In this document: piece after piece, positions 7,956 through 64,000 of the stretch
Layout of the letters: every line of letters starts with the position of its first letter
How positions within the stretch are numbered: position 1 is the first letter of the stretch
Source of the DNA: Urbifossiella limnaea
GTDB lineage: Bacteria > Planctomycetota > Planctomycetia > Gemmatales > Gemmataceae
Assembly (NCBI RefSeq): GCF_007747215.1
Contig: NZ_CP036273.1
Coordinates: 4,820,322 to 4,884,321, forward strand
Direction of reading: 5' to 3'
DNA length: 64,000 bases
Notes under the pieces: model-generated
Told to the model about the DNA's origin: nothing
What the model saw: the letters and a program-made list of their open reading frames with translations, nothing else
Databases searched by the model: none
Made by a program: the position numbers and the translations under genes

Positions 7956-7974
7956 GCGGTGGTTCTGGGGTTCG

Positions 7975-8726: not shown

Positions 8727-8811
8727 GCCGACGGGCGTTTGACCGCGGTCGAATCGGGTGCTACGGGTTGAGGTGGGCGACGAACCGCCCGCTCGCCCGA
8801 GACCGCCGCCG

Positions 8812-9534: not shown

Positions 9535-9562
9535 GCCGGCTCCGTTTCGCGCGAGGACGACG

Positions 9563-10051: not shown

Positions 10052-10064
10052 ACTTACTCTCGCC

Positions 10065-10478: not shown

Positions 10479-10640
10479 CCGGCTGGACGGCTGCTCGAGG
10501 CGCGGAAGTCGGAAAAAAACCTCGGAGCAGGACTGGCGTCGGAGCGATTCCGTTGGCATAACGGGATAAACGCCCGTCCGCGCACGTCAGGCCGCGGGCG
10601 GGCCGTGGCCCCGAAGCCCTGAGCCCGGAGGTTCCCGCTA

Positions 10641-10949
10641 GTGCCGCACGTCGTCACCGCCAACTGCAACGACTGCAAGTACACCGACTGCTGCGTCGTC
10701 TGTCCGGTGGAGTGCTTCTACCAGGACGAGAAGATGCTCTACATCGACCCGGCGGACTGCATCGACTGCGAGGCGTGCGTCCCCGAGTGCCCGGTCGAGG
10801 CCATCTACTCCGAGCCGAACGTGCCCGGGCAGTGGCAGAGCTACATCCAGCTGAACGCCGACAAGAGCGCCGCCCTCAAGGGCTCCGGCGGCCACATCAC
10901 CGAGAAGGCCGACCCGCTCGAGGGGCCGGACTGCTCGGCGAAGAAGTAG
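10641..10949 (+). CDS. fdxA: Seven-iron ferredoxin (FdxA type)
   Basis: A 102-residue ferredoxin. The N-terminal half shows two cysteine sets, CNDCKYTDCCVVCPV and CIDCEACVPECPV, the arrangement that binds one [3Fe-4S] and one [4Fe-4S] cluster. The approximately 45-residue tail is also typical of the FdxA family. It is a small soluble electron carrier; its partner is not indicated. The start is GTG 10641 with a GGAGG ribosome site at 10627-10631. A stem-loop with T run closes the transcript. Confidence 0.9.
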   Translation: MPHVVTANCNDCKYTDCCVVCPVECFYQDEKMLYIDPADCIDCEACVPECPVEAIYSEPNVPGQWQSYIQLNADKSAALKGSGGHITEKADPLEGPDCSAKK

Positions 10950-10985
10950 TGGCCGGCGGCGAGTGGTTAGTGTCCAGTGCGACGC

Positions 10986-11020
10986 AGCGGCTCCGGTATC
11001 ACCGGGGCCGCTGTCTTTTT
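10986..11020 (+). terminator. Rho-independent terminator after the ferredoxin gene
   Basis: Twelve-bp stem 10986-10997 / 11001-11012 with one T-G wobble, a 3-base loop ATC, and five T at 11016-11020. Confidence 0.8.
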
Positions 11021-11100
11021 CGTTGCAGCGGCCCCTACCATCTCCTTAGCGACGTCGTGGTCCCAACTGCCCGCTGTCCTCTGACCGCTGTCCACTACTC

Positions 11101-12069
11101 ATGACTGGCCTCCTCCTCGTCCAGCTCGGCACCCCGGACGCCCCCACCTACCGCGGGCTGTTCCCGTACCTCCGCCAGTTCCTCTCCGACCGCCGCGTCA
11201 TCGAGGTGCCGCGGCCGGTGTGGGTCCCGCTGCTGTACGGGTTCATCCTGCCGTTCCGCAGCGGAGCCTCGGCCGCGAAGTACCGCCGCATCTGGAGCCC
11301 CGACACCGGCTCGCCGTTGATGCACTACACGACCCGCCAGGCGGCGTTACTGCAGGAACACTTTCCCGACACGCCTGTCCGCTTCGGCATGATGGTCGGC
11401 AACCCGTCGGTCCGCGATGCGGTGAGGCAGATGATCGAGTCCGGGGTGGATCGGCTCGTGGCGCTGCCGATGTTCCCGCAGTACTCGGCGACCACGTCCG
11501 CCAGCGCGACCGACGCCCTTTTCGGGGCGTTGATGAAGGAGCGCCGCGTACCCGCGGTCCGTGTCGTGCCGCCGTACTACGACCACCCGGCGTACGTCGA
11601 CGCAGTCGTCACGAACCTCCGCGACGACATCGCCGGCCTCGGCTGGGAGCCGGAGCACGTCGTCATCAGCTTCCACGGCATTCCGCAGAAGTACGCCCAA
11701 AAGGGCGACCCGTACGCGACGCACGTCGTTCGCACGACACAGGCGCTGGTGAAGCGGATGGGCTGGTCGCGGAGCTACTGGACGCAGACGTACCAGTCGC
11801 GATTCGGCAAGTCTCCGTGGCTCAAGCCCTACACGGACGACGTACTCGAACGCCTGGCCAAGCGGGGTGTGCGGCGCGTCTACGTGCTGCTGCCCGGGTT
11901 CACGGCCGACTGCCTGGAAACGATCGACGAGATTGGGCACGAGAGCCGCGAGGTCTTCCTCCACGCGGGCGGCGAGATGCTGCACAACGGCCGCTGCCTC
12001 AACGACCACCCGCGCTGGATTGAGGCGATGGCCCGAATCGTCCGCGACGAAGCGGCCGGCTGGATGTGA
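11101..12069 (+). CDS. hemH: Ferrochelatase
   Basis: A 322-residue ferrochelatase, which inserts Fe2+ into protoporphyrin IX (or coproporphyrin III) at the end of haem synthesis. It opens with the family signature LLLVQLGTPDAP. The metal-site His192 is in ISFHGIP and the catalytic Glu273 in ADCLETIDEIG. Length is normal and no transmembrane tail is present, so the enzyme is soluble or peripheral. ATG 11101 directly precedes the signature. Its stop lies 3 bases from the stop of the convergent vWA gene, with no hairpin between them. Confidence 0.95.
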   Translation: MTGLLLVQLGTPDAPTYRGLFPYLRQFLSDRRVIEVPRPVWVPLLYGFILPFRSGASAAKYRRIWSPDTGSPLMHYTTRQAALLQEHFPDTPVRFGMMVGNPSVRDAVRQMIESGVDRLVALPMFPQYSATTSASATDALFGALMKERRVPAVRVVPPYYDHPAYVDAVVTNLRDDIAGLGWEPEHVVISFHGIPQKYAQKGDPYATHVVRTTQALVKRMGWSRSYWTQTYQSRFGKSPWLKPYTDDVLERLAKRGVRRVYVLLPGFTADCLETIDEIGHESREVFLHAGGEMLHNGRCLNDHPRWIEAMARIVRDEAAGWM

Positions 12070-12072
12070 CCG

Positions 12073-12897
12073 TCAGCGGAACTCGACGGGAGCAGCGACG
12101 CCGTTCGGCCCGACTCGTGCCGTGACAAGCGTCACCGGCTTCCTCACCCGCCGCAACTGGGTGCGGACCGCAGCCGTCGGTAGGTCGTAGGCGTCGGTGA
12201 ACCAAACGACGAAATCCGGCATCTGGTCGAGGGCGAGTCGCAATCCGGCGAGGTGGTCACCCCTTCCAGCCGGTGAGCAGGTCGCGAGCCGGGTAAGCGT
12301 AACGACCTCAGCACTCGCGGCGTAGACCACAACTTTCACGTCCACAGTCGCTGGTTGAGCCGCGGTAGTTGCGGCGAGTACGTCACGGGCCGCGCTGAAC
12401 TTCCCCCACTCGCCCATGCTGCCGGACGCATCGAGGAGGTAGACGACACGCTGGCCCGCGGTCAGCGTGCCGTGAACCGGTCGGGTGACGGCCGCCGCGG
12501 GTCGAACACCCGGGTCTGAGATCGGTCCCGGAGCGGGAGCGACGCGGCGAACGTGCGCCAGCACGGAGTCCGGCAGCGCCGACGGCACGTACGTCATGCG
12601 CGGAGCACAGCGGGTAGATATACCTTCCTTGGCAACGGGTACATCTTGCGACTCGGCAATCGTGGGCACCTCGACCGGTGCTACCAACTCGGCGTCCGCC
12701 AGCACCGTCATTTGCACCTGAACCGGCACCTCGGGGATCGGCTCGGCGCCGATCCGCACACACGTGTCGAGAGCCGGCCGCGCAGTCGGCGGAAGCTCGC
12801 CCGGTGTCGAGAACGACACAAGGGCGACGATCGTGGCGTGTATCGCGACCGACGCGGCTACCGCCCAACTTGCCCGGCTTCGCACACGCATCGGCAT
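12073..12897 (-). CDS. Membrane-anchored von Willebrand factor A domain protein
   Basis: A 274-residue protein. One N-terminal hydrophobic helix (WAVAASVAIHATIVALVSF, about residues 9-28) resembles the anchor of TonB-like proteins. It is followed by a Pro/Val-rich linker and a C-terminal vWA domain with the MIDAS motif DASGSMG. The domain is short (about 130 residues), but a DAYD metal-site loop is visible near the end. The role is unknown; vWA domains usually bind protein partners through a metal ion. Start chosen at ATG 12897 (MPMRVRS, basic residues before the helix); longer starts add an implausible leader. It is divergent from the secreted protein at 13020. Confidence 0.75.
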   Translation of the reverse strand: MPMRVRSRASWAVAASVAIHATIVALVSFSTPGELPPTARPALDTCVRIGAEPIPEVPVQVQMTVLADAELVAPVEVPTIAESQDVPVAKEGISTRCAPRMTYVPSALPDSVLAHVRRVAPAPGPISDPGVRPAAAVTRPVHGTLTAGQRVVYLLDASGSMGEWGKFSAARDVLAATTAAQPATVDVKVVVYAASAEVVTLTRLATCSPAGRGDHLAGLRLALDQMPDFVVWFTDAYDLPTAAVRTQLRRVRKPVTLVTARVGPNGVAAPVEFR

Positions 12898-13019
12898 CCC
12901 TCCCACCGGCCCGATACCGGCCCTCGGCCCGATCCGCAAGAGCCCACTGGTTGGGGTTGCGGGTTCCGTCCGCCGTCGGCATGGTCCGTAGGCTTCACAC
13001 AGATCGGAAAGGAGTCCGC

Positions 13020-13457
13020 ATGTCACGTCGGACACTCCCGCGGGCCGTCGTCGCCGGCCTGCTCGTCGCCGCCCTCGGCGGCCCCGTCGCCGGCAAGGCG
13101 CCGAATCCGTGGCGCGGCGAAAGCACGACGCTGCCGACCGCGCCCGCCCCGCGCCCCGTCATGAAGCCGACACGACAACTGATCATCGGGATCGGGATCA
13201 ACAGCACGAGTGGCCTGACTGGGAGCGTCGAGGTCCGCGGGTTGTCGCGTGCGGAACCGGTCGAGAGTGCCCCGATGCCCCTCCGCGTCGAGCATCGCTC
13301 GCGGCCCGTCGCGCTCCCGCCTTTGCCCGAGACAACGCCCGCCCTGCCGACAATCACCTCCTCGGGGGTCGTCCCGGCAGGTTACGTCCGGGTGCCGGAG
13401 TACATGCCCCCGCCGAAGCCGCTTCCGGTGCGGGCCATCCCCCCGGCGGCGCCGTGA
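13020..13457 (+). CDS. Small secreted Pro-rich protein
   Basis: A 145-residue protein starting at ATG 13020 behind an excellent ribosome site (AAAGGAG, 6 bases upstream). An Arg-rich N-terminus and hydrophobic core ending AALGGPVAGKA form a signal peptide (about residues 1-24). The mature part is Pro-rich with a short beta-like segment (QLIIGIGINSTSGLTGSVEV) and ends in a Pro-rich tail. No family recognised. It is divergent from the vWA gene, with 122 bases between the starts. Confidence 0.7.
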   Translation: MSRRTLPRAVVAGLLVAALGGPVAGKAPNPWRGESTTLPTAPAPRPVMKPTRQLIIGIGINSTSGLTGSVEVRGLSRAEPVESAPMPLRVEHRSRPVALPPLPETTPALPTITSSGVVPAGYVRVPEYMPPPKPLPVRAIPPAAP

Positions 13458-13523
13458 GTCGTTGCGGGCGCGGGGTGGCGGGCGTAGCATCTTCCACGCC
13501 CACCCACCCGTGCCCGGTTCGCG

Positions 13524-15455
13524 ATGACGCACGACCCGCTCGCCGATACCCGGCCTCACCCGCCGGCGGCGAACCCGAGTGACTCTTCCACCGCCCCACG
13601 GCCGGGCCACGACCCACACGTCCCTGCAAGCCCGCTCCCCGCCACTGCTCCCTGCGACCACTCGGTCCGTCCGAGCGTGGTGGACCTTCCGAACGCCGGG
13701 ATGGTGGTCGGCGAGTTCGAACTGTGCCTGGAACTCGGCCGCGGGGCATTCGGGCGCGTGTTCCTGGCCGACCAGAAGGGGCTGAACCGTCGCGTGGCGC
13801 TGAAGGTGTCGCTCGGCCGCGAGATGACGGCCGAAGAGGGGAAGTCGCTCGGCGGCCTCGAGCACGACCACATCGTCAAGGTGTACTCGTCGTTCGCACC
13901 ACCCGGCACCAACTGGCACTGTCTGTGTCTGCAGTACGTGCCCGGTACCGACCTCCGTGGCGTCATCACACGCCTGCACCGTGACGGGGCTCCGCTCTCG
14001 GGGCAGGACATTCTCGATGCCGTAGACGATGCGGGACGGAAAGACGCGGGGTTCGATCCGGCCGCACTCCGGGACCGCGAGGCGCTGTCGGCCGACGACT
14101 TCGCACAGGCCGTGTGTCGCCTCGGCGGCCGGCTCGCGGAGGCGCTGGCGTTTGCCCACGGCCGCGGAGTATTGCACTGCGACGTGAAGCCGGCGAACAT
14201 CCTCGTCACGCCCTACGGCCGGCCGATGCTCGCCGACTTCAACGTCGCCTTCGACCGGGCGAAAGTCGGCCGCGGTGTCGGCGGGACGGAGGCGTACATG
14301 GCCCCCGAGCACCTCGCCGCGTCCGAGGCCGGCGCCGCCGGCACGGTCGACGAGCGGTGCGACATCTTTTCACTCGGCGTCGTGCTGCACGAACTGGCGA
14401 CCGGTTTGCGTCCCGACCAGCAGCCTGCTACCGACGCCCTCGCCGCCCTTCCCCAAGAAGTCGCTCAGGTGATCCGCTGTTGCCTGGAGCCCGACCCGGC
14501 GGCGCGGTACTCCAGTGCCGGCGCGCTGGCCGGAGCCCTCGCGGGGGCATGGCACCTGCTCGCGGCGCGGCGGGCGATGCCGAAGCCCGGTCAGTTCGGC
14601 CGCTGGGTCGTAGCCAACCCGGTGTGGGCGCTGGCCCTCGCCGGCCTGGTGCCGCACCTCGCGGGGTCGGTCGTGAACATCAGCTACAACGCGGTTCAGA
14701 TTGACCTGACGAAGCCGCAGGAAGCCGCATTCAACGCACTCGTTATAGGGTACAACGCCGTCGTCTACCCGGCGTGTGCGGCGTACCTGTTCCTGCTCTT
14801 GCGCCGCATCGGCAATGGCATCCGGGCGCTACCTGCGTCTCGCGTCGCGGCAGCCGACGGGCTCCGCCGGCGCTGCCGACACCTCGGCTGGGTGGCAATC
14901 GGCCTCGGCTGCGTCGGCTGGTTTCCGGGGGCCGTCCTCTTCCCCCTCGGCATCGATCTGGCGACCAGGGGCACAGCACCGATCGAGCCGGACAAGCGAC
15001 TCGCTCTCTACGGTCACTTCGCCGTTTCGTTCGTGCTGTCCGGGCTGATCGGCATTGTGTTCAGCTTTCTCAGCGTGATGTACGTGCTACTCCGGGCCGT
15101 GTTCCCGATCGCGGGTAACCCGGACACGTATCGCCCCGGTCAGGTCGGCGCCGAACTCCGGCCACTGGCCTGGTGGTTTGGTCCGTTCGTCCTACTGGCT
15201 AGCGCCGTGCCGCTGACCGGGGCGATGATGCTCGTCAGCCTCAGTGACGACCGGATGACTCTGGCGTTCCGCCTACTCGTGGTCGGGCTGATCGGCTTCG
15301 GTGTCGTCGCGGTCGGGATGGCCGAGCGGTTGACGCGCCGCATCGCCCGCCTGGCCGCGGTATGGGAGGTGGAGACGGACCCGGAAACGCCTGCTCAGGT
15401 GCCGTGGGACTCGCGGCGGTCGAGCACAGCGGTCCGCGCCGCACCGCGTCAGTAG
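13524..15455 (+). CDS. Transmembrane serine/threonine protein kinase with atypical DFN motif
   Basis: A 643-residue Hanks-type kinase. A Pro-rich 60-residue leader precedes the kinase domain (about 64-350): glycine loop GRGAFG (72-77), Lys94 in VALKV, catalytic loop HCDVKPAN (Asp220, Lys222, Asn225) and APE (260-262). The metal-binding DFG is DFN (238-240), and HRD is HCD, so it is a non-RD kinase. The C-terminal half (about 375-630) has four to six membrane helices instead of a PASTA or TPR sensor. Its last 7 bases overlap the stop of the convergent ABC permease gene. Confidence 0.9.
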   Translation: MTHDPLADTRPHPPAANPSDSSTAPRPGHDPHVPASPLPATAPCDHSVRPSVVDLPNAGMVVGEFELCLELGRGAFGRVFLADQKGLNRRVALKVSLGREMTAEEGKSLGGLEHDHIVKVYSSFAPPGTNWHCLCLQYVPGTDLRGVITRLHRDGAPLSGQDILDAVDDAGRKDAGFDPAALRDREALSADDFAQAVCRLGGRLAEALAFAHGRGVLHCDVKPANILVTPYGRPMLADFNVAFDRAKVGRGVGGTEAYMAPEHLAASEAGAAGTVDERCDIFSLGVVLHELATGLRPDQQPATDALAALPQEVAQVIRCCLEPDPAARYSSAGALAGALAGAWHLLAARRAMPKPGQFGRWVVANPVWALALAGLVPHLAGSVVNISYNAVQIDLTKPQEAAFNALVIGYNAVVYPACAAYLFLLLRRIGNGIRALPASRVAAADGLRRRCRHLGWVAIGLGCVGWFPGAVLFPLGIDLATRGTAPIEPDKRLALYGHFAVSFVLSGLIGIVFSFLSVMYVLLRAVFPIAGNPDTYRPGQVGAELRPLAWWFGPFVLLASAVPLTGAMMLVSLSDDRMTLAFRLLVVGLIGFGVVAVGMAERLTRRIARLAAVWEVETDPETPAQVPWDSRRSSTAVRAAPRQ

Positions 15456-16444
15456 TCCATGTGCCGGAACTCATACCCGGCGACCGCCAGGGCGGCTGCA
15501 GCAAACACCAGCGAGGTGAGGACTGCCATCTCCGGGTGATATGTACCGCGGGCCTTCGCCGCAGCCAGTTCCGGGATCGGGCTGGCGTACTCCTCGGCCT
15601 TCATCGCGTCGAAGAAAATACCGCCCATGTCCAGCGGTTTCGGCAGCGTCCAGTACCCGGCTTGAACCAGAACGCTCGCGGCCCGCGTCGAGCCGGGCAC
15701 CGGGTCGGACGCGAGTTTGTGGTGGGTGAAGTTCATCGCCCAGCAGAGGAGCCAGAACAGGAGCGTGCCGAAGACGCTGACGACGGTACTCCGGGTACAG
15801 ACAGCCAGCAGTGCGCTGACGGCGTAAAACACGGCAAAGTTCACGACCAGGAGCGGAACCGCGACCCAGTACGTGCCCTCCCAGACGCCCGTCGCCGCGC
15901 CGGTGGCGAGCCACGTCGCCCCGACGAACATCGTCGACTGCAGCGCGACGAACAGCACCACCCCGATGTACTTGCCGGCCAGCACCGCCCAGCGCGGGGC
16001 CGGCTTGGCGAGGAGGACGGTAACCGCCGCGGGTTCGAGGAACGTGGGCAGAAAGCCCGCCGTCCACAGCAGCGCCAGCAGTACGCCGACGGTGTCGGCT
16101 ACAATTCCGGCGAGCCACACGAGGATCACGCGGACCGCGTCGGACTTGTTCTTCGTGATCGGGTACTCGAACAGGCCGAATCCGAGCGTCACCTTGCCGT
16201 CCGCGACGCGGACCCCCTCGGCGACCACCTCGGGTGTCTTCTCCCCTTTCGGCAGGTACGTCGGCAACTCGGCCGGATGGCGGGGTCGTTCCGTGGCCGC
16301 CTCGACGGTGAGACTGAAGCAGAAGGCCGCGCACAACAGCGTGAGGCCGAGCATGGCCCAGAACAGCTTCGTAGCGACCGACTGGCGAAAGGTGTCTCGG
16401 ACCATCCAGCGGACGGTGCGGATCGCGTCCGGGTACTGGGTCAC
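15449..16444 (-). CDS. ABC-2 type transporter permease
   Basis: A 331-residue membrane protein with about six hydrophobic helices, including an N-terminal one (FWAMLGLTLLCAAFCFSL) followed by a roughly 70-residue loop. This is the layout of ABC-2 permeases of the exporter/Nos type. The start is GTG 16444, overlapping the stop of the ATPase gene by 4 bases (GTGA), which implies translational coupling. Substrate unknown. Its far end overlaps the convergent kinase gene by 7 bases. Confidence 0.85.
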   Translation of the reverse strand: MTQYPDAIRTVRWMVRDTFRQSVATKLFWAMLGLTLLCAAFCFSLTVEAATERPRHPAELPTYLPKGEKTPEVVAEGVRVADGKVTLGFGLFEYPITKNKSDAVRVILVWLAGIVADTVGVLLALLWTAGFLPTFLEPAAVTVLLAKPAPRWAVLAGKYIGVVLFVALQSTMFVGATWLATGAATGVWEGTYWVAVPLLVVNFAVFYAVSALLAVCTRSTVVSVFGTLLFWLLCWAMNFTHHKLASDPVPGSTRAASVLVQAGYWTLPKPLDMGGIFFDAMKAEEYASPIPELAAAKARGTYHPEMAVLTSLVFAAAALAVAGYEFRHMDY

Positions 16445-17211
16445 GCCGCTCCCCCCTTGTCGTGCTGCTCGTACAGCGGCCGCAGCGCCCCTTCGAGCGC
16501 CCGGTCCTTCCCCACCTTCGCGTCCTTCAGCAACTCTGACAGCGGCCCTTCGTGGACGACTCTGCCAGCGACAAGGACCGCGATTCGGTCGCACAATTCC
16601 TGCACTTCAGGGAGGACGTGCGACACCAACAACACCGTCTTCCCGGCGGACTTGAACTCGCGGACGACTTCGCGGAGGAGTTGCCGGCCTCCCAGGTCGA
16701 GCCCCTCAGTCGGCTCGTCGAGGACGAGCAGGTCGGGGTCGTTGACGAGCGCCTGGGCCAACCCGAGCCGCTGAACCATCCCCTTGCTGAACCGGGCGAT
16801 TGGCTCGGACTTCCGGTCCGCGAGACCGACCCGCGCCAGCAGATTCTCGACCCGGCCGTCCAGTTCGGCGGACGGGACGCCCGACAGCCCGCCGTAGAAC
16901 GCCAGCAATTCGGCCGCGGTCAGGTAGCGCGGGAAGGCGTGATTCTCGTGCATGTAGCCGACGCGCCCGAGCGTGCCGCGGTGGTCGAGTGGCTGCCCGA
17001 GCCTCGTCACCGTGCCCGCGGTCGGTGCGGACAGCGACAACAGCAGCTTGACGAGGGTCGTTTTCCCCGCGCGGTTCGGGCCGAGGAGGCCGAAGACGCC
17101 GCCGGCGGGAACTGTCAGTGTGACTCCGCGGACGGCCGCCACACCGCCACGGCCGAACGGGCCGGTCTTGTACGTCTTCTCGACCTTTTCGAAGGTGGCG
17201 GCGGTTGTCAA
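16441..17211 (-). CDS. ABC transporter ATP-binding protein, partner of the permease at 15449
   Basis: A 256-residue ABC ATPase. The Walker A is GPNRAGKTT, where Arg replaces the usual Gly but the GxxxxGKT frame is kept. The signature region is SKGMVQRLGLAQAL, the Walker B LLVLDEPTEGLD, and the switch His is in SHVLPEV. It is of the CcmA/NatA exporter class that pairs with ABC-2 permeases. The start is TTG 17211, giving MTTAATFEKVEKTYK. It drives ATP-dependent export through the coupled permease. Confidence 0.9.
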   Translation of the reverse strand: MTTAATFEKVEKTYKTGPFGRGGVAAVRGVTLTVPAGGVFGLLGPNRAGKTTLVKLLLSLSAPTAGTVTRLGQPLDHRGTLGRVGYMHENHAFPRYLTAAELLAFYGGLSGVPSAELDGRVENLLARVGLADRKSEPIARFSKGMVQRLGLAQALVNDPDLLVLDEPTEGLDLGGRQLLREVVREFKSAGKTVLLVSHVLPEVQELCDRIAVLVAGRVVHEGPLSELLKDAKVGKDRALEGALRPLYEQHDKGGAA

Positions 17212-17285
17212 CGCTGGCCCCCGGTGTTGCCGGACGTTAACACTCTAGCTCACGATCGGAACCGGGCACGCCCCAGAAACGGGAA

Positions 17286-17311
17286 AGCCCGGGGAGAGTC
17301 GTCCCCGGGCT
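17286..17311 (-). terminator. Hairpin after the TadG-like gene
   Basis: Ten-bp perfect stem 17286-17295 / 17302-17311 with loop GAGTCG, 26 bases beyond the stop codon at 17337 on the minus strand. Confidence 0.65.
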
Positions 17312-17336
17312 CGCCGCAACGCTCCACGCACTCGCA

Positions 17337-20300
17337 CTACTCGATCAGTGCCACCGACACGCCGCTCTGGAAGATGCGTTCCATGCAGGACTTCAGAGTA
17401 TCGATCCGGTTCTGGTAGGTGCCGGTAATGACCAGGTAGCTCGGCAGGGTGGTCGTGCCGCTCGGCAGGGTGCCACCCGCGACGCCGACGTTCGAAAGGA
17501 ACTGGTGGGCCGTCGTGCGGAACGTCGCACTCGGGGCCAGAGTCGTGTCGAACAGGTCCCCGAAGCCGATCGGATAGACCCGGGCCGGGGCGTTGCTGAG
17601 GCTGTGCCCGCTGTCCCCGCTCGCAGTTGTGGCCAGCGGCTTGACGATCTGCTTCACGACGTTGACCGCCGAACTCATCGACGGTTCGGTGCCGTTGCCA
17701 GGGCTCCCGCCGTTGGCCAAGTTCGAGTAGTAGGAGTTGTACCCCGCGGTGTTGAGCGTCCCACTGCTGTACGAGTTCGGCACGCCGTCCGTCTCGAAGA
17801 TCACGATCTTGCTCGCCCCGCGCCGGCCGCGGATCGTGCCGTACTCGGCCGGCAGGGAGGACGAGGAGCTGAGCAGGTTGTACGCCACCATCAGCCCCGT
17901 GTTCGGGTCGGTGCTGCCGTTCGAGTTCGGGACCACGTCGATCCCCACGGACGTGTAGGATTGGGTGTACGGCCGCATCTCCGCGGTGGCGTCGCCGGCG
18001 TTGATCTGCGTGAGGAGCGTCCGTGGGAAGAACAGGGCGTTCTTCAGCGCGGTGAAGTTCTGGCCCGTCGGCACCCGCGGCAACTTGTACGCCCCTGCGG
18101 AACTGTACGAGAACATGGTCATGCCCACGGCGTCGTTCGGGTGGTTGTTGCGGATGTCGTCCAGCACCGAGTTCATACCCGCCTTGAGCTGCCAGCACTG
18201 GGCCTCGCGGCAGGTGCCGGGGTTCCAGTTGCCGCCGCTCGTGCCGCCCGCGTTGCCGATGAAGTCCATCATGCTCAGCGGGCCGAACCAGAAGTGCATC
18301 CGCGGCCGGTTCGGGCTGTCGTTGTAGCGCATGTACGGCCGCTGGCTCGCCCAGGTGCCGGTCGGCCCGGTCCACGCCGTCAGGTCGCCGGTGGTCATCG
18401 AGCGGGCGGCGCTCGACCAACTGTCGGCGTTCCCGGCCAGGTTCGTACTCGACGTGTACCGGTACCCCAGCACGTAGTCGATGTACTCCTTCCAGAACCG
18501 CTTATCGAGCTTCTGCTGGGTCGTGCCCGTGGCCGTGTCCACGTCGTTGGGGATGGACGAGTAGTACAGCACCCGCCCGGCCCGGAGGTTCGGCGGCAGC
18601 GCCTGCGGGCCGCTCTTGATCCACCGCAGGATTTGGGCGTAATCGATCCGGTAGCTGTCTACCGTCTGCGTTGTGTTGCCACTTCCACCCGAGGTGATGG
18701 GGATCGACTGGTTGCCGGTCGCGGCCTTCAGCGTCATCCCGCTGCCGGTGTTGAAGAGCACCTCGTTAATACTCTCGTAGCTGCCCGACCCGCTCCCGTT
18801 GTAGGGGTTGGCGTCAGTCTGCGGGTCGAACGTGCCGACCGCCCCGTAGTTGACCGTGGTGTTACCGCTGGCCACGGCGGCCGTCACTGTGCCCATCTTG
18901 GCAAAGTACCGGCGGCGCCAGTCGCCCGCCTGGTAGCCGGCGTCGCCGGGGTTACCCACCGGTGCCCGCGGGTCGGGCGGCCAGATGAAGAACGTCTTGC
19001 CCCAATACCCCGGCCCCATCGAGTAGCCTTGGTACCGGTCGGCCGTCGGCACCAGCGTCGTCGTCGCGTCGTACGTCCCGCCCGCGACTTTGGGCAGCAG
19101 CGGGTTGCCCGTCCCTCGGTCCGCCCGGTACTTCACGATGTCCAGGTCGTAACCGTACGCCTCCCACACCGGGTCGCGGAACCGTGCCTCGGCGATGATG
19201 TTCGTACCGCCGGAGGTCCGGACCGTGCCAGAGCTGACGGTGTAGCCCAGCAACTCGAGCGCCGTACCCGCCGCCCGGGTGGTCGCCGCGCCGGTCGCCC
19301 AACTCGTGTTCGTCTTGTTGATCGACCCGTCGGCCCGCCGCCACCGGTCGCCCACGTACGTGATCGCCCCCGAGTCGGTCATCGACTTGAAGTTGTCGGG
19401 CGCCGGCGTCGGGCCCGTCGGGTTGGCGGCGTCGCGGGCACTGAAGGCGTTGTACCCGCTGAAGTCGTAGGTCTGGCTGACGTAGGAGGACGGGTTGCCG
19501 GCCGTCTCCGCCGGACTCCACGCATGGAACGCCGGCTTCAGCAGCGACCGGTCCGCCGGCAGCGTCGTCTCCTCGCTCGGGTCGCCCGCGTTCGCCGGGT
19601 TGAAGTAGTAGTCCCGGACGATCGGCGGGCCGCCCGGCGTCGTCATGGTGTAGTTGTTCCGCGAGATCGCCTCGCCGCTGGCGTTCGTCTCGTTGGCCGC
19701 CGCGATCAGCGAGCTCTGGACGCTGACGTAGTGCCCGAAGGCCGGGGCCAGCGGGTCCGCGTTCAGGTGCTTCCCGCTGTAGTTGAACGTGCTGCTGAAC
19801 GCCATCGACCCGGTCATGTCGAGCACGAACGCCACGTCCCGCGGCCGGTACACGGCCACCGCCCGCGCCCCGCCCGGCATGCTGTTCACGCCCCACAGCC
19901 GGGCGAAGTACGTCGGCTGATCCAGCGACACCGACACCTCGACGGCCGTCCACGATCGACCAGCCGGCGGCGTCGTCGGGTACGACACCTCGAACGTCTG
20001 CGTCGTCGTGTTGTACTCGTACGTCCCGACCCGAATGGACGTCACCGGGGCCGGTGTCGTGGCCTTCGACAACGACGTCGACATGAGCGGGCTGCCGTTG
20101 GCAGCGTCCTTCGCCGCCTGAACTGCGGCCGGGCGGTTGTTGTCGTAGCTCGGGTTTTCCGGCTGCTTGTTGTCGAGCGTCCGGCAGCCCACCAGTGCCG
20201 CCACGTCGGCGGCGTTCTGGCACTGAGTCCGGGCGACGGCCAGCATCCCCAGATCCACCGCCAGGGCGACGAAGGAGAAGATGGCGATCAGGCAGATGCC

Positions 20301-57282: not shown

Positions 57283-57900
57283 TTACGGCTTTTCGAGGGC
57301 ATCGAGCTGGGCGGCAATGGCGGCGTCGACGATCTTATTCCAGTCTCTCGGCGGCGTGTGGTTCATCCGCATCCGCTGGTCGGTCCAGCGGACGACGCCG
57401 TCCGGGCCGACGAGGTAGATGGTCGGGGCGACCTGGTAACCGACCCCTCGCATGCCAGTGCCGACGCCCAGGCGGATGATCGTGTCGGTACTCATCAGGT
57501 AGCCGTTGGCCCACGGGATGCGAGCTCTAGAAACGTACTGGCCGACCATGTCGTCGGGCATGTTCGTGAGGCCGACGAACTGCACGCCGCGGGAGGAATA
57601 CTTCTCGTAGAGCCGGACCAACTGCGGGGCGGAGTTCTTGCAGAACGGGCACCACTCGGCCCAGACGTCGACGAGGAGGAGTTTCTGCCCCGGAGCCCCG
57701 ACGGCCGGGGGCGGGCCGTTGATCCACCCCTTCACCTCGAGCGGCGGGATGACATCGCCCACTTTGAGCTGCGGGGTCGGCGGCACCGGGGTCGTCACTT
57801 CGGGCACGTCGTCGGCGATGTTCCCCTTGCGCGGTGGGGGCGGCGCCGGCTCGCACCCGGCGGCGAGCAGCGCGACAGCGAGGACGACGGCGGCGCGCAC
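57283..57900 (-). CDS. TlpA-like thioredoxin-fold lipoprotein
   Basis: A 205-residue redox protein. GTG 57900 begins a lipoprotein signal with LLAAGCE. A Pro-rich linker is followed by a thioredoxin fold with the WCPFC active site in VDVWAEWCPFCKNSAPQL and the cis-Pro in VAPTIYLVGPDGVV. It reduces or oxidises disulfides in the periplasm or outer surface. First gene of the minus-strand cluster with the TPR protein. Confidence 0.88.
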   Translation of the reverse strand: MRAAVVLAVALLAAGCEPAPPPPRKGNIADDVPEVTTPVPPTPQLKVGDVIPPLEVKGWINGPPPAVGAPGQKLLLVDVWAEWCPFCKNSAPQLVRLYEKYSSRGVQFVGLTNMPDDMVGQYVSRARIPWANGYLMSTDTIIRLGVGTGMRGVGYQVAPTIYLVGPDGVVRWTDQRMRMNHTPPRDWNKIVDAAIAAQLDALEKP

Positions 57901-57990: not shown

Positions 57991-58019
57991 CGAGACCCCC
58001 GGGGTCGCCGGGGGTCTCG
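57991..58019 (-). terminator. Hairpin downstream of the tRNA fragment
   Basis: Perfect 12-bp stem 57991-58002 / 58008-58019 with loop GGTCG. It lies 5 bases beyond the 3' end of the tRNA half on the minus strand, where the terminator of the original tRNA gene is expected. Confidence 0.7.
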
Positions 58020-58023
58020 CGAA

Positions 58024-58068
58024 TAGCGGGGGCCGGAATTGAACCGGCGACACATCGCTTATGAAGCG
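58024..58068 (-). tRNA. 3' half of a tRNA gene (CAT anticodon), probable attachment site
   Basis: Minus strand: the anticodon loop TTCATAA (CAT = 58061-58063) with only the three inner stem pairs (CGC/GCG) left, then a variable loop, a perfect T arm GCCGGTTCAATTCCGGC and the acceptor strand CCCCGC. The 5' half (acceptor, D arm, outer anticodon stem) is absent; upstream sequence is unrelated. This is what a tyrosine recombinase leaves when it crosses over in the anticodon arm. The intact tRNA (Met or Ile2 type) would lie at the other end, beyond 64000. Confidence 0.7.
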
Positions 58069-58144
58069 GACTCAAACGGACCGGCTGGGACGCGAGAACG
58101 CCTGCAAACGAAGGGATTTTACACCGAATCCGCCCCGTTGCAAG

Positions 58145-58215
58145 GCGGTAGTTACCGCGCATGAATCGCTTGGAAATGCGGTAATAGCGGGGGGATGTGC
58201 GGTAGAAGTGCGGTA
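58145..58215. repeat. Five GCGGTA hexamers next to the attachment site
   Basis: GCGGTA at 58145, 58178, 58199 and 58210 on plus, and TACCGC at 58153. The first two form GCGGTA-GT-TACCGC. Clustered short repeats 77-150 bases from a core site are typical of recombinase arm sites; this reading is inference. Confidence 0.4.
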
Positions 58216-58327
58216 GCAAATTCGCGGCGGTCCAGGTGGGTGATTGACCGACGGGCCGGGTTTCGTGTCCGGTTTCCGAACCGCGGCTCGTACAGCCAGT
58301 AGGTGCATCCCCCATACTGGACCGCTC

Positions 58328-59062
58328 ATGTCCCGCCCCGACTCGGCCGCACTCCGCGGCGATGTCCGCCGCCTCAACACCCGCCTTTACTTACTGACCG
58401 TCCGCCAGGGCGCCCGGCGCTTCCTCGACCTCTTCCGGTTCGGCGACGGCGCCGCGGAACGGCTCGCGGCCGCGGCGGTCGTCGGGGCGGTTTTCTTCCT
58501 GGTCATCATCGGCGTGTCGATGGCGACAGGGGCGCCGATCGGCTACGGACTCGGAATCGGCGGCGCCGCGCTGTTGGTCGCGTGGGGTACAAGTGCCGTG
58601 TTCGTGTTCGGGCCGGCCGACAACGTGATAGCCGCGCGGGCGGACCAGACCCGCGCGACGCTCCTCGACACGCGGCTGGAGTTGCGGGAAGCAATCGCGG
58701 AGGAAGAGGAGGCCGCCGAAGATGAGGAGGACCGCCGGCGCCGTCGGGCGGCGAAGCCGGTGCCGTGCGACTACTGCGGCAGCCCCGTCAGCCGGTGGGC
58801 GCTGAAGTGCCGGCGCTGCGGCGAGTACCTCGACGCGGGCCTGCGAGATGAGCGGGAGCGGGCCGGGCGTCGGCAGAGCTTCTACCCCGGGGCCGCGTTC
58901 CTGAGCTGGCTGTTCCCGGGGCTCGGCCAGATGGTGAAAGGGCAGGTCGGCCGCGGGCTGGTGTTCCTGGTTGCCGAAGTGATCGGCTTGTTCTTCTGTC
59001 TCGTCCCGGGGGTCGTCATTCACCTCATCAACATCTTTGACGCGGCGGTCTACAACGAATGA
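58328..59062 (+). CDS. Zinc-ribbon membrane protein of unknown function
   Basis: A 244-residue protein with ATG 58328. Two helices come first (VVGAVFFLVIIGVSMATG, about 50-70, and IGYGLGIGGAALLVAWGTSAVFVF, about 72-95). A charged coiled stretch (EEEEAAEDEEDRRRRRAAK), a zinc ribbon (CDYCGSPVSRWALKCRRC) and a C-terminal pair of helices ending in INIFDAAVYNE follow. The end resembles TM2/DUF-type membrane proteins. First gene on the element side of the attachment site. Confidence 0.7.
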   Translation: MSRPDSAALRGDVRRLNTRLYLLTVRQGARRFLDLFRFGDGAAERLAAAAVVGAVFFLVIIGVSMATGAPIGYGLGIGGAALLVAWGTSAVFVFGPADNVIAARADQTRATLLDTRLELREAIAEEEEAAEDEEDRRRRRAAKPVPCDYCGSPVSRWALKCRRCGEYLDAGLRDERERAGRRQSFYPGAAFLSWLFPGLGQMVKGQVGRGLVFLVAEVIGLFFCLVPGVVIHLINIFDAAVYNE

Positions 59063-59142
59063 CCTTTCGGGTAGTGGGCATTGGGCAGTCGTACACTCTG
59101 GAAATGAGGAAGGGAGTCAGGGGGTTGCGGGCGGGGAAGGAG

Positions 59143-59730
59143 TCACCACGCCCAATTCCGCGTGCAAGCTACGGCGAGTAGTGGCAGAAGGAGAGACGCA
59201 ACCGCACACCCAAAACACCAAGTCGCATTATCCACCAATTCGCCCTTTCGGCGGATGACGACCCGAAGCATGGCGGCAGATAGGTTCCACTGCGGAATCA
59301 AATAGGCACGGGCTTCCGCAGCGGTGGCGTTCTGCTCCGCTCGGCGGGCCAATCGTATCGCTGATGGCAGGGTGTAGACCGGTTCGGACTTGCGGCAACG
59401 GGCAGCAAACACGAGCGCGGCAACCGCGAACAGGATCGTCGGCACTGCCGCAGCAGCGACCGCGGGATGAACGGCGGCTGTGGCCGCGGTGTTCACCGTA
59501 CCGAACGCCGCGAGGCCGGCACCCGCCCCGACGTAGCCGATGATGGCCCCGGCCTTCGCGTCGAGCGCGTCGAAGGCAGCCGCCGTCAGTTCGTATGCCT
59601 TGCGTGCGTTCTCCTCCACCCATGCGTAATCGACCCCCGGCTTCGGCGTGAAGTCCTGAACGAACTGGATAGCCGCGAGTGCGGCGGGGTCGCCTGCGGC
59701 GTCCGCGGCGAGATCGGCTGGGACGCTCAT
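59143..59730 (-). CDS. Multi-helix membrane protein, possibly Pycsar/SLATT-like effector
   Basis: A 195-residue protein with an N-terminal helical segment (YAWVEENARKAYELTAAAFDALDAKAGAIIGYVGAGAGL), three to four helices (59-78, 84-105 and 168-190 region), and a basic middle stretch (RLARRAEQNATAAEARAYL). The pattern of a short charged helix (DAKAG) opening straight into paired helices recalls membrane effectors of Pycsar and SLATT systems. No cyclase lies beside it. ATG 59730 is overlapped by the stop of the small Pro-rich gene (ATGA). The family call is tentative. Confidence 0.6.
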   Translation of the reverse strand: MSVPADLAADAAGDPAALAAIQFVQDFTPKPGVDYAWVEENARKAYELTAAAFDALDAKAGAIIGYVGAGAGLAAFGTVNTAATAAVHPAVAAAAVPTILFAVAALVFAARCRKSEPVYTLPSAIRLARRAEQNATAAEARAYLIPQWNLSAAMLRVVIRRKGELVDNATWCFGCAVASLLLPLLAVACTRNWAW

Positions 59731-59867
59731 TCCCACTCCCGCGGGATGGACTTCACGATCTTCTCCGGCCAATCCGAGTCCACCGGGGGCGGCGACGGAG
59801 GGGGCGGTGGAGGGGGTGACGGGGAGCTGGGTGGCGGTGGCGATGACGCGGCCTCCCGAGCACGCAT
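59727..59867 (-). CDS. 46-residue Pro-rich peptide gene coupled to the membrane protein
   Basis: Read by hand: ATG 59867, a short charged head (MRAREAASS), a tract of mostly Pro with Ser, then VDSDWPEKIVKSIPREWE and TGA 59727-59729. GGAGAA lies eight bases upstream. The conserved-looking amphipathic end, the ATGA overlap and the ribosome site argue that it is real. Its role may be translational coupling or a subunit of the membrane protein. Confidence 0.55.
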   Translation of the reverse strand: MRAREAASSPPPPSSPSPPPPPPPSPPPVDSDWPEKIVKSIPREWE

Positions 59868-60096
59868 GGGCTGTTCTCCGAAACGACCAAGCCGGGGCAA
59901 GCGACGAGGTGGAGAACGCCCTCTCGTTGTTTGCCCCAGCTTTATCGCGGGTAATTACTCCGCGGGCCGTTGCCGGATTGTACCACGCCGGCTGACGCAA
60001 GACACTCGCCATCATGCACCAGTGACGCGACGCCTTTCGGGCGATACGTCTCGCCCCCTCATTGCGGAACAAAGCCACGCACCACCCGCGTCCCTT

Positions 60097-61119
60097 TTAC
60101 GCCTTGGGTAACTCGGTGTCCGAGGTGAACGTGACGTTGAGTGCCGTCGGTGGCGCGACTGCCTGTCCGGCTCGAATCGCTTGGAGCCTTTCGATCTGGC
60201 CGAGGGTGAGTTGGAGCTGCCTGCCGAGGTGAGCCTCGACCCGCATGACCCGCTCGGCCACGTCCGCCCCCGGGAGTAGTGCCGCGTCCGCCCGCCACCG
60301 CGGGCCGAACTCGGCACGGGCCACCAGCGCCGCCTCGGCCGCCCGCCTCGCGGCTGCGTCCCGCATGGCGTCCGCCCGCACCGTCGCCGCGTGGCGGGTC
60401 ACGGTCGCCACCACCCGGGCCGCGGGACAGCCGATTCGGTTGGCGTAGTAGTCGAGCCCGGCGCGCACGAGCCCCACCGTCCACGTCACGTCATCGACCC
60501 GCCGGCAGTCCGCCCCGATCCGCTTTAAGAACGTCGGCTCGGCGGCCGGGAGGGCGTCCCGCCCCATCCCCTCGGCCATCTCCCAGCCGAGCCGGAACAC
60601 CAGTCGGGCCACCCCGGCGGGGACAGGTTCCGCCGCCGGCGTGTCGGCCAGCCGGCCGAGGAGACTCACGAGTTCATCGGCAGCGCCGGCGAGCGCCTCG
60701 GCCGTCGTCGCCAGCCGCCGGGCGTCGGCCAATCGCTCCGGGTCGCGCTTGTAACCCTTGAGGTGGAGGAAGGCGGCCGCCGGGGATTCCTCAACCGGCT
60801 CGGGGACAGCCGAGCCGGCGACCGCGGCCGACAGGGCGCCGGCTTCGTGCCGCGTCACCCGCCGCATCCGCCAGAGGGTCAGCGCCACCCGCTCGGCCAG
60901 GGCGAGCTCGAGGGCGCCGACCGGCGCCAGGGATGCCACCACCCCGGCCCGGTGCTCCTCCCACTCGTCCGGGGACTCACCCGGCACCAGTGCGGCCCCC
61001 GAGAACAGCCCGTGTCCCAGCGCATTCAGGGCGACGGCCGCCTTGCCCGCGTCCGTCCGCGGCCCGGTACTCTGGACCGCGTTCGCCCTATTCGCAACCA
61101 GCCGGCGCTCGGTCGTCAT
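60097..61119 (-). CDS. Conserved protein of phage/element type (STGPRTxxGK family)
   Basis: A 340-residue helical protein. It opens with RRLVANRANAVQSTGPRTDAGKAAVALNALGHGLFSG, an N-terminal block I know from many planctomycete element-borne proteins (NA..STGPRT..GK..). The rest is Ala/Arg/Val-rich helices. ATG 61119 overlaps the terminase small-subunit stop (ATGA), so both are made together. The molecular function is not known. Confidence 0.75.
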   Translation of the reverse strand: MTTERRLVANRANAVQSTGPRTDAGKAAVALNALGHGLFSGAALVPGESPDEWEEHRAGVVASLAPVGALELALAERVALTLWRMRRVTRHEAGALSAAVAGSAVPEPVEESPAAAFLHLKGYKRDPERLADARRLATTAEALAGAADELVSLLGRLADTPAAEPVPAGVARLVFRLGWEMAEGMGRDALPAAEPTFLKRIGADCRRVDDVTWTVGLVRAGLDYYANRIGCPAARVVATVTRHAATVRADAMRDAAARRAAEAALVARAEFGPRWRADAALLPGADVAERVMRVEAHLGRQLQLTLGQIERLQAIRAGQAVAPPTALNVTFTSDTELPKA

Positions 61120-61601
61120 GCCGTTGCCTTTCGTTGTTGTTTGCGGCGGGCGCCCGCCCGCCGGCCGGTCATCCCGAGGAGCTTGGCCAGGAGGGCCAGC
61201 GCCCGCCCCTTGTCCCGGAACGTCACTTCGAGAACCTCGGCCGTCCCGTTCGGCTCGACCCGCACCCGGATGCGGTGGACGGCCCGGCGGGCGGTCGGCG
61301 GTATGTGAGCCATGGGCAGCAGCCGGAGCCCCGGGCCGGTCGGGTCGAACAGGTCCGAAAGGTCCGAGAACGCGACCGCGGCGAGTTCCTCCAGCACGCG
61401 CCGCCGGGTCGCCACCGCCTGCTGCTCCAGTTCGGCGCGACCGTCCGCTACTGCCTTCCAGACCTCAGCATTCCTCAGCAGCCGCGAGCCGTTCGCGGCC
61501 GCGGTGGCGGGTGCGGGCGGCGCGTAGGCGGTGCGGTAGGCGCGGGCCGCGTTCGGATCGGTGAGGTACTCGGCCACGAACCGCCGTTGCCGGTCGTTCA
61601 G
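61116..61601 (-). CDS. Phage terminase small subunit
   Basis: A 161-residue DNA-packaging subunit (Terminase_2 type). The hallmark N-terminus is NDRQRRFVAEYLTDPNAARAYRTAY, then the helix-turn-helix-like SRLLRNAEVWKAVADGRAEL, and later the domain DLSDLFDPTGPGLRLLP. No ATG/GTG/TTG lies at this point: the only codon that fits the N-terminus is CTG 61601, whose A-overlap with the stop of the upstream gene (CTGA) implies coupling. An earlier start within the overlapped gene is the alternative. No large terminase is adjacent. Confidence 0.7.
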   Translation of the reverse strand: MNDRQRRFVAEYLTDPNAARAYRTAYAPPAPATAAANGSRLLRNAEVWKAVADGRAELEQQAVATRRRVLEELAAVAFSDLSDLFDPTGPGLRLLPMAHIPPTARRAVHRIRVRVEPNGTAEVLEVTFRDKGRALALLAKLLGMTGRRAGARRKQQRKATA

Positions 61602-61957
61602 TCCGGCGCGTCGAGGATCGTCACCACCGGCGCCCGGCCGGCGTGCCGCTCCACCGTCACCAGTCCGGCCGCCTCCAGCGCCGCTAGCCCCCGCCGCGCC
61701 GCCGCCCGCGTCCCGGCGCCGAGTGCCGCCAGACGGCTGAGGGTCGCGGCGACCGTCCGCCGCCGTTCGCACCCGGCCAGGAACCACACCACCAGCCCCA
61801 CCGCCAGCGCACGGCCGGGGAGCGCCGCGGCCGCCGTGAGCCAGTCCAGCGGGATCGGCCCGCGGAGGAACTTCACCCCGGGCCGGGGGCGCGGCGGGGA
61901 TGTCGGCGGCGGGAAGTCGGCCGGGGCGAGCCGGGCCGGGTCGAACGGGTCGGGCAT
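61598..61957 (-). CDS. Small winged-helix-like DNA-binding protein
   Basis: A 119-residue protein. An N-terminal Pro-rich head leads to helices (LDWLTAAAALPGRALAVGLVVWFLAGCERRRTVAATLSRLAALGAGTRAAARRGLAALEAAGLVTVER) of a winged helix: the last helix plus beta turn (AGLVTVERHAGRAPVVTIL) is a standard wing. Likely an element regulator. ATG 61957 is chosen (GGTGG at suitable distance); GTG 61969 adds four residues. It ends with a 4-base overlap onto the terminase gene. Confidence 0.65.
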   Translation of the reverse strand: MPDPFDPARLAPADFPPPTSPPRPRPGVKFLRGPIPLDWLTAAAALPGRALAVGLVVWFLAGCERRRTVAATLSRLAALGAGTRAAARRGLAALEAAGLVTVERHAGRAPVVTILDAPD

Positions 61958-61974
61958 CGGGCATTCCACCGCCC

Positions 61975-64000
61975 CTATAGGGGAAGAGAACAGAACTCAG
62001 AGATAACACTGGGCGGGGGTATCACCGGTGGTACGGGTCCGGTGTCACCGGTGGTACGGGTCGGGTCCGCCCCGAGCTCGGCCAGGAGCCCGCACACCAG
62101 CCCCCACATCCGCGCCCCGCGCGCGTCCGTCCAGCGGTCCGGGTGCCGCACGATCTTCGCGTCCGTCCGCAGCGGGAAGCCGGGGAGGACGAGCTCGGAC
62201 GCCTCCCGCATGGCGTCCCGCATCCGCTCCGTTTCATCCTCGGCGCGGTCGTCTGGCGCCTCGATCAGGAAGGCGTCGTGAACCGGACAGCACACCGCCA
62301 GCCCGCGCTCGGTGGCCAGGCACGCGGCCAGCCGCATCATCTCCGCGCCGTGGGCCTGCATCGGCCAGTTTCGCAGACTCCGGGGGTTCGCCAGCGGGCG
62401 GCCGGTTGCCGGGTCGAGCCCCGCCGGAACGCCGGTCGCCCACCCGAACCGGGTTCGCAACCGGCCGGTGAGGAGCGCCCGCTCCTCGACCGAATCCGAC
62501 CACTCCCAGAACCGGCGGAACGTCCGGCGGTGGAGGTCGAGCAGCTCGACCCCGCGACCGCGGGGGGCGCCGAGCCGCCGCGCCAGCCCGTCGGCCGATA
62601 GCCCGTAGAGGACGCCGAGGCTCACCACCTTGAACGCCTCCCGCTCGGCCGGGTGGGTGTGCTTCGTGGCGTCCGCCGGGATCGCCCCGGCCATCTTGGC
62701 GAACGTCGTGTAGAAGTCGCCGCTCGTGTACGCCTCCATCATCTGCGGGTCGGCCGACAGCGCCGCGGCGATGGCGAGTTCCTGTTGGGACCAGTCCACA
62801 TACACGACCGCTCGCCCCGGGCCGGGTCGAATCAGGGACCGCAGCCACGCGGCCGGGCCGAAGATGAACGCGGTGTTCGACGGCTGGTTCCGCCCGGTCC
62901 GGGACCGGAACGCGGACAGGAGGCACCGGTTCCGCCCGTCGGGGCCGACGGCCAGCTCGTTGAGCCGGAACTCCCCCAGCGAGTGACGGAGGTCGCGGAT
63001 CGGCCCCACCTCGGCGGGGAACCGCTTCGCCATCTCGCGGAACGTGTCGTCCTTCAGGTCGAGCGACCCGGACGGGAGCCGGGGCCAGGGGATGCGCTTC
63101 CGGGCCAGATACCGCGCCCACCGGTCGGCCGAGAACGACAACGGGCCGGGGGGCCGGGTGGCGCCGTCGTCGGGGCCGAGTCGGTCCGCGGCGTCGCGGA
63201 TCAGCCCCGGGTCGTGCCGCGGCCGCGGGGCCGGGTCGGGGTCCGCCAGGACCGCCCACAGCTTCGGGGCGTAGTCGTCGTCTACCCCGTCTGGGTCGTA
63301 CCCGCCGCCGATGCCGAGGTCCGGCAGCTCGCCGGCGAGTTCCCGCGCCGCCACGTCGAGCCCCGGCACGTCGAGGTGGTCGCGCCCGGCGTCGAGGAGC
63401 CGACCGACCCGTGCCGAAGTGAGCCCGGTAGCGGCGCGGGCGGCGCGGACCGCGGCCAGCCGGCCGGCGGTCGCCTCGACCTCCTCCCGGTGGAGGTGGT
63501 CGGCGGCGGCCGCGAGCGCGTCCGGGTCGAGTTCCCACTGGCGGGCCGCATCGATAACAGCGGCACCGAACCGGCTGGCCGGGTCGAGCTGGCGGCCGGT
63601 CGGGGCGAACACCCGGTAGTCGGCATCCACCACGCGGACGAGTCGTTCCTTGATCCCGCTCCAGTGTTCCCGGAGTGCGGCGAGCGCCGCCGCGTCGATC
63701 GGAACCCCGGTCCACTCCATCCGCGCGGCGGCCGTCATGTACCGCCCGCGGAGCAGCGCCCGCGAAAGGTCGAGCCGCGGGGCCATCCGCGGGAGGAGCC
63801 GGGCCAGCGCGTCCACGTCCGCCGCGCAATAGTCGAGCAGCGCGGCCCGCTCGGCGGCGGTGAACGGGCCGCCGCGGATCGCCAGCGCCCGCAGCTCGTC
63901 CTTCTCGCCCGCCGCCAGCCCGTCGAGCCGGAAGTGAGCCAGCGCCCCGAGGAGCCCCGAGCCATGCGGCGTCGGCCCGCCGTTCGTCAGGAGCCGGAAC
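61975..64000 (-). CDS. Family A DNA polymerase with 3'-5' exonuclease (5' end outside window)
   Basis: The frame is open to the window edge, so the N-terminus is missing; 674 residues are visible. The exonuclease domain shows LLDYCAADVDAL with the last catalytic Tyr/Asp pair. The polymerase motifs are A: VYVDWSQQELAIAAALS; B: REAFKVVSLGVLYGLS; C: VHDAFLIEAP. Motif C has Ala in place of the usual Glu (HDE) while the essential Asp is kept. It is an element or phage polymerase rather than the housekeeping PolA, as no 5'-nuclease is seen. Ends 17 bases before the winged-helix gene. Confidence 0.9.
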   Translation of the reverse strand, partial: FRLLTNGGPTPHGSGLLGALAHFRLDGLAAGEKDELRALAIRGGPFTAAERAALLDYCAADVDALARLLPRMAPRLDLSRALLRGRYMTAAARMEWTGVPIDAAALAALREHWSGIKERLVRVVDADYRVFAPTGRQLDPASRFGAAVIDAARQWELDPDALAAAADHLHREEVEATAGRLAAVRAARAATGLTSARVGRLLDAGRDHLDVPGLDVAARELAGELPDLGIGGGYDPDGVDDDYAPKLWAVLADPDPAPRPRHDPGLIRDAADRLGPDDGATRPPGPLSFSADRWARYLARKRIPWPRLPSGSLDLKDDTFREMAKRFPAEVGPIRDLRHSLGEFRLNELAVGPDGRNRCLLSAFRSRTGRNQPSNTAFIFGPAAWLRSLIRPGPGRAVVYVDWSQQELAIAAALSADPQMMEAYTSGDFYTTFAKMAGAIPADATKHTHPAEREAFKVVSLGVLYGLSADGLARRLGAPRGRGVELLDLHRRTFRRFWEWSDSVEERALLTGRLRTRFGWATGVPAGLDPATGRPLANPRSLRNWPMQAHGAEMMRLAACLATERGLAVCCPVHDAFLIEAPDDRAEDETERMRDAMREASELVLPGFPLRTDAKIVRHPDRWTDARGARMWGLVCGLLAELGADPTRTTGDTGPVPPVIPPPSVISEFCSLPL
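62022..62063. repeat. Two 18-base direct repeats at the end of the polymerase gene
   Basis: TCACCGGTGGTACGGGTC occurs at 62022-62039 and 62045-62062, a 23-base period. They fall in the C-terminal Pro/Thr tail of the polymerase, in different frames. Confidence 0.8.

Follow-up and report, generated by a model that had tools for sequence, protein, structure and literature searches.

A tRNA remnant without its 5' half, lying on the minus strand of the Urbifossiella limnaea chromosome, raises the question of how it came to be there and what it borders. The window analysed here, a 64-kb stretch at positions 4820322-4884321 of a 7.8 Mb genome held in one contig, yields zero tRNA genes with ARAGORN, and an Rfam scan of the fragment region gives no match. 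A sequence-only reading had proposed that a tRNA with anticodon CAT is broken here in its anticodon stem, that the break marks the left end of an integrated element, and that an intact counterpart with an integrase would be found past 64000. The rest of the genome bears this out. The fragment matches, base for base, the 3' part of a complete tRNA-Met(CAT) gene on the same strand (G000:C1:4887475-4887547, minus), which lies 9,130 bp to the right, at 67154-67226 in coordinates carried on beyond the window (window-equivalent), with a tyrosine recombinase adjoining it. The fragment itself had been correctly recognised at 58024-58068; its extent has to be corrected to the 47 nt of 58022-58068. The features that define this end are as follows.

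57991-58019, minus strand: displaced native terminator hairpin of tRNA-Met, on the chromosomal side, with a 12-bp stem and counterparts in relatives
58022-58068, minus strand: displaced 3' part of tRNA-Met(CAT), the left attachment site, identical to L003:11473-11519 (67152-67198)
58022-64000, no strand: left 6 kb of the integrated element, the whole of which measures 9,130 bp, runs to window-equivalent 67151 and is bounded by direct repeats

Read on the minus strand from 58068 to 58022, the identity block is CGCTTCATAAGCGATGTGTCGCCGGTTCAATTCCGGCCCCCGCTATT; it starts at tRNA position 29 and ends 2 nt beyond the last base of the tRNA-Met gene. Just outside it, the intact gene has ATCGC where the fragment has TCCGC, precisely the mismatch in the outer stem on which the sequence-only reading had relied. 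A 33-nt core pattern, searched across all 7.8 Mb of the genome at a tolerance of up to 3 mismatches, occurs at two sites only, both exact, so that a chance origin of the fragment is excluded. The intact tRNA-Met and the displaced fragment bracket the element in identical orientation, and an integrase gene (PF00589, E=4.4e-12) lies within it, with 109 nt separating it from the 3' end of the intact gene. The tRNA islands of the Islander catalogue (PMC4383910) likewise have a rebuilt tRNA and a displaced 3' fragment with a tyrosine integrase between them; the attachment arrangement here differs in no respect from theirs, and the element is a typical case. With the 47-nt repeat, the intact tRNA and the integrase in place, sequence comparison confirms the fragment at 58022-58068 as the scar at one end of an integrated 9.1-kb element.

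Which side of the fragment is chromosome is decided by the hairpin directly past it, a perfect 12-bp stem at 57991-58019 that had been taken for the old tRNA terminator. In the relative G001, where the tRNA-Met is free, the gene runs straight into GAGAACCCCCGGGGAAACCCGGGGGTTCTTCTTTTC, a homologous hairpin and the closest match among relatives, and the left end in the window, after the tRNA-Met fragment, reads GAGACCCCCGGCGACCCCGGGGGTCTCGTCCTTTC where G001 has its terminator. Hairpins lie directly 3' of tRNA-Met in G002 and G003 as well. The rebuilt tRNA-Met of this genome is followed by unrelated element sequence, and a native-type hairpin is absent from its 3' side. Since the hairpin at 57991-58019 matches that of G001 and the rebuilt tRNA runs into unrelated sequence, the former is the native terminator and the chromosome lies on the left; the earlier assignment of chromosome and element to left and right is thus upheld by the displaced terminator together with the integrase beside the right-hand intact tRNA. 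About 40 nt past the rebuilt tRNA-Met there is a short GC hairpin that lacks a T run (L003:11418-11434).

Beyond the intact tRNA-Met, the right flank carries a large gene that is membrane-bound dehydrogenase-like by sequence, and this neighbour is kept beside tRNA-Met in G001, G002, G004 and G005. In both G001 and G002 the tRNA-Met is free, its terminator follows directly 3' and the right flank is the one seen here; the left flank is not syntenic. The TlpA-like gene of the left flank in the window (57283-57900) was not found near tRNA-Met in the compared relatives, and the free site therefore rests on the tRNA-Met, its terminator and the right flank only.

The history that best accommodates these observations is one in which a 9.1-kb element inserted into an elongator-type tRNA-Met(CAT) through site-specific recombination by a tyrosine recombinase. 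The attP of the element would have borne a copy of the 3' part of tRNA-Met, and insertion would therefore have rebuilt a complete tRNA-Met at the integrase end, while the original 3' part and its terminator would have been pushed to the far end, where the former would now be the 58022-58068 fragment. The sequence-only reading had placed the crossover at the anticodon stem. This needs refining, since the identity block does no more than bracket the crossover, which may have occurred anywhere in its 47 nt. Four identity blocks of displaced tRNA-Met, one in this genome and three in relatives, start at positions 25, 29, 29 and 32, and all four include the anticodon loop; these starts are compatible with a crossover in the loop, where the exchange would probably take place within the 7-bp TTCATAA flanked by its CGC/GCG stem. 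The blocks also fit an anticodon-centred class of tRNA attachment sites that is included in the Islander catalogue (PMC4383910).

Repeats near the two ends of the element offer candidate binding sites for the recombination proteins.

58096-58107, minus strand: 12-nt terminal inverted repeat, TTGCAGGCGTTC, with its partner at L003:11398-11409 (67077-67088)
58177-58215, plus strand: three copies of TGCGGTA (58177, 58198, 58209) clustered near the end, candidate integrase arm sites

An inverted-repeat match of at least 12 nt between the 200-nt element ends arose in 4 of 1000 shuffles, and the repeat may be a site for the integrase or for Xis. Further copies of TGCGGTA lie at window-equivalent 67059 and 67069, so that five of the seven copies in the 9,130-bp element fall in the outermost 200 nt or so at either end, a distribution that suggests integrase arm sites.

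The same tRNA gene has been used by other elements. In G005 it holds a different element, about 25.8 kb long (L060/L061, G005:C1101; 139-183 and 25997-26069), whose integrase is 57% identical to the one described here and which lacks the polymerase trio in the part that was compared. Displaced 3' fragments of tRNA-Met are also present in G003 and G014, and in G004 an integrase adjoins the tRNA-Met. Judged by these arrangements, tRNA-Met is a preferred integration target among the relatives.

The genes of the element, in order from right to left, are the following.

Window-equivalent 65801-67045: tyrosine recombinase of 414 aa (PF00589, E=4.4e-12; PHROG 1)
Window-equivalent 65203-65688: DUF1580-like protein of 161 aa, by sub-threshold similarity to DUF1580
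Window-equivalent 64279-64905: u208, an OB-fold protein by its model, first gene of the trio
61975-64000 and on to 64275, minus strand: family-A DNA polymerase (PolA) of 766 aa with 3'-5' exonuclease motifs (DNA_pol_A, PF00476, E=1.4e-26)
61598-61957, minus strand: u119, a winged-helix protein and third gene of the trio, from family alignments and an AlphaFold2 model (pLDDT 89)
61116-61601, minus strand: terminase small subunit (Terminase_2; Pfam E=1.2e-23, PHROG 51 E=3.6e-25, both scored on the ORF 61116-62009, which contains the gene)
60097-61119, minus strand: ORF of 340 aa with no assigned function; the tRNA-Asp element of this genome and L138 hold partial homologues close to their trios
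59143-60078, minus strand: cargo ORF of at most 311 aa, depending on its uncertain start, that includes hydrophobic segments (PADLOC PycTM, E=0.016)
58328-59062, plus strand: cargo ORF of 244 aa, zinc-ribbon-like with a hydrophobic C-terminal part (sub-threshold Pfam DUF6677 and Zn_ribbon_3)

The DUF1580-like protein is, by its position alone, a candidate directionality factor. The small terminase probably starts at a CTG that overlaps the stop of the upstream gene. The 340-aa ORF matches none of the families searched, and the 311-aa ORF, whose homologues in relatives are sparse, has very weak similarity to a Pycsar transmembrane effector.

The window had been said to hold phage-like genes to the right of the fragment, and this stands for the small terminase. 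It does not extend to other structural or packaging genes, the core being a PolA module: among the principal ORFs of the 9.1-kb element, Pfam and PHROGs give no large terminase, portal, capsid or tail gene, and find only the small terminase, the polymerase and the integrase. As an integrated element the reading is confirmed; a phage nature is not.

Phage satellites of the SaPI/PICI kind are small and carry an integrase and a small terminase without other structural genes. The element resembles them in all these respects, its size being that of a satellite, and it might accordingly be a satellite whose own small terminase redirects the packaging machinery of a helper phage to the DNA of the element. 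In favour of such a role, the tRNA-Asp element of this genome has a relative of the terminase in the corresponding position. However, the small terminase lies outside the conserved core of the family, accompanies the trio at two loci only, both in this genome and the second frameshifted, and has no other close copy in the genome indicative of a helper prophage; nor was any known PICI regulator recognised in the element. We regard the satellite reading as possible but rather unlikely, while packaging by a helper phage could still be a property of an integrative element built around the polymerase.

What is conserved emerges from a search with the polymerase, which returned 47 loci from genome contigs and another three from viral contigs, in addition to copies in relatives; 55 loci were compared, with two duplicate records left out. 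The u208 gene is present in every one of the 55, spread over several phyla, and immediately precedes PolA in almost every one; u119 follows PolA in most loci whose contig extends far enough. A tyrosine recombinase occurs within about 4 kb of the trio in 38 of these loci, and in 18 loci a tRNA or tmRNA gene has a recombinase abutting or overlapping its 3' end, the targets comprising Met, Asp, Cys, Pro, Lys, Glu, Phe, Arg, Ser, Val and tmRNA (more than 10 kinds). No other gene family is widely common to the trio loci. Searches of 50,697 phage and 72,556 plasmid records gave no close homologue of the polymerase. In a survey of Planctomycetota, u208 was found in 6 of 294 genomes, which makes the family widespread but sparse. 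The PolA tree groups by phylum and neither proves nor rules out transfer between phyla.

This distribution bears on whether the element is a decayed prophage, reduced by loss of its head and tail genes to integrase, polymerase and small terminase. Family-A polymerases and small terminases do occur in phages, and phage polymerases have the same polymerase domain, with an identity of about 26%. Against this, the trio and an integrase recur, with no conserved phage structural genes alongside, at dozens of loci from several phyla, none of the phage records encodes a close homologue of the polymerase, and the catalytic residues of PolA are intact; a prophage origin by decay is improbable. A local duplication or pseudogene of the tRNA, unrelated to integration, would appeal to the existence of tRNA fragments that arise for other reasons, and is refuted by the combined geometry of an integrase beside the intact copy, identical orientation, displacement of the terminator and, in relatives, a free site.

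The reading as an integrative element is extended by further copies of the trio, of which this genome holds three, at tRNA-Met, tRNA-Asp and tRNA-Cys, each with a different integrase. The second, at tRNA-Asp(GTC) (L075, G000:C1:3852001-3872000, 576-10821), has a PolA and a u208 that are 91% and 90% identical to those described here and an integrase that is only 47% identical; it carries the frameshifted small terminase, and a Cas3c-like gene and an IstB-like gene come after it. In the third (L098, G000:C1:2212001-2232000, 8739-19962), the integrase ORF at the end overlaps the tRNA-Cys gene antisense, and a QatC-like gene lies just upstream. Because the three trios of this one genome pair with different integrases, core and integrase are interchanged as modules. 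At L151 (8491-10239), a large serine recombinase follows PolA in place of the tyrosine integrase and adjoins tRNA-Met; upstream there is a type IIG restriction enzyme. A second delimited element, L152, spans 6.46 kb at tRNA-Val between 24-nt repeats and holds PolA, u119 and an integrase, while its u208 looks degenerate. Exact repeats of a tRNA 3' end did not reveal the far ends of the tRNA-Asp element and most other trio elements in the stretches examined. Type IIG and type I restriction-modification systems are found beside other trio loci, as are an AriA/OLD-family ATPase, AbiEii, Cas3c and QatC, these defence genes being counted as neighbours, with placement within an element shown only for the delimited ones.

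At one further locus, L159 (tRNA-Met at 10009-10085, minus strand), the 5' half of tRNA-Met is repeated as a 39-nt copy about 2.4 kb from the intact gene, on the side opposite the trio and near a second integrase (11352-12446); the copy possibly belongs to another element in the same gene.

The function of the trio can be approached through its proteins. Across 46 aligned PolA sequences, the exonuclease residues D14, E16, D88, Y149 and D153 and the polymerase residues D494, E499, R545, K549, Y557, H666 and D667 are conserved (H666 and D667 are gapped in one), and the closest solved chains are of the Taq and Klenow type. The u208 model is confident (pLDDT 89.2) and adopts an OB fold; the top row of VIA-align is the weak match to the core of RB69 gp32 (Z 4.9, 133 residues, rmsd 4.4), followed by T4 gp32 and, in many of the lower rows, by other OB-fold or DNA-binding proteins. 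Foldseek gave no significant match for u208 in the PDB and two in BFVD at E<=0.001, to an uncharacterised phage protein and to one without a name, and viral contigs gave no relative of u208. As the Z score is low, similarity of u208 to single-stranded DNA-binding (SSB) proteins is a lead rather than a result, and the resemblance to gp32 may reflect only the common OB arrangement. The u119 model is a winged-helix fold.

The combination of a polymerase, a possible SSB and a DNA-binding protein points to a module that would replicate the excised element, and self-replication may follow from it. There is no obvious primase, helicase or initiator in the trio, so that priming would depend on the host or on other features. 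The replication module of phage T7 combines the SSB gp2.5 with gp5, a family-A polymerase, and the trio is similar in pairing a proofreading family-A polymerase with an OB-fold protein that resembles ssDNA-binding proteins; it differs in having no primase-helicase, in lacking close sequence similarity and in not residing in a phage.

The closer parallel is with pipolins, integrative elements that encode their own DNA polymerase and tyrosine recombinases, are associated with a tRNA gene, and carry variable cargo that includes restriction-modification genes, with little conserved besides the polymerase (PMC7385651, PMC9710591). The element shares with them att-type direct repeats, a tRNA target and a tyrosine recombinase. 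However, pipolins are defined by piPolB, a primer-independent family-B polymerase (PMC7385651, PMC9710591), whereas the polymerase here belongs to family A, has 3'-5' exonuclease motifs and is accompanied by OB-fold and winged-helix proteins; the element is therefore not a pipolin. As a functional analogue, the pipolin remains the best reading: the trio, coupled to an integrase often at a tRNA and with variable neighbours that include defence genes, would replicate the excised form and so make the element a PolA analogue of pipolins.

We place the probability of the explanation as a whole, a tRNA-Met integrative element belonging to a widespread PolA-trio family, at roughly 0.86. Its firmest parts are those read from the sequence itself, namely both ends, the integrase, the displaced terminator, the conservation of the trio and the intact catalytic residues. 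The wider proposal, that the trio is a self-contained replication module defining an undescribed, phylum-spanning family that is the PolA counterpart of pipolins and a vehicle for defence systems, has in our judgement an even chance of being correct. No description of a PolA-trio element family was found in the open literature, and the elements are apparently members of an undescribed family of PolA-bearing integrative elements.

Taken by itself, the attachment site is a textbook case of tRNA-targeted integration. The element is also a small and precisely delimited example of a PolA-bearing integrative family with an SSB-like partner, a family that spans several phyla, uses more than 10 kinds of tRNA and is often found near defence genes. 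At 6.5-9 kb, its delimited members are small enough for direct tests. If the trio does replicate the excised element, it would represent, beside the pipolins, a second and unrelated solution to the self-replicating integrative element.
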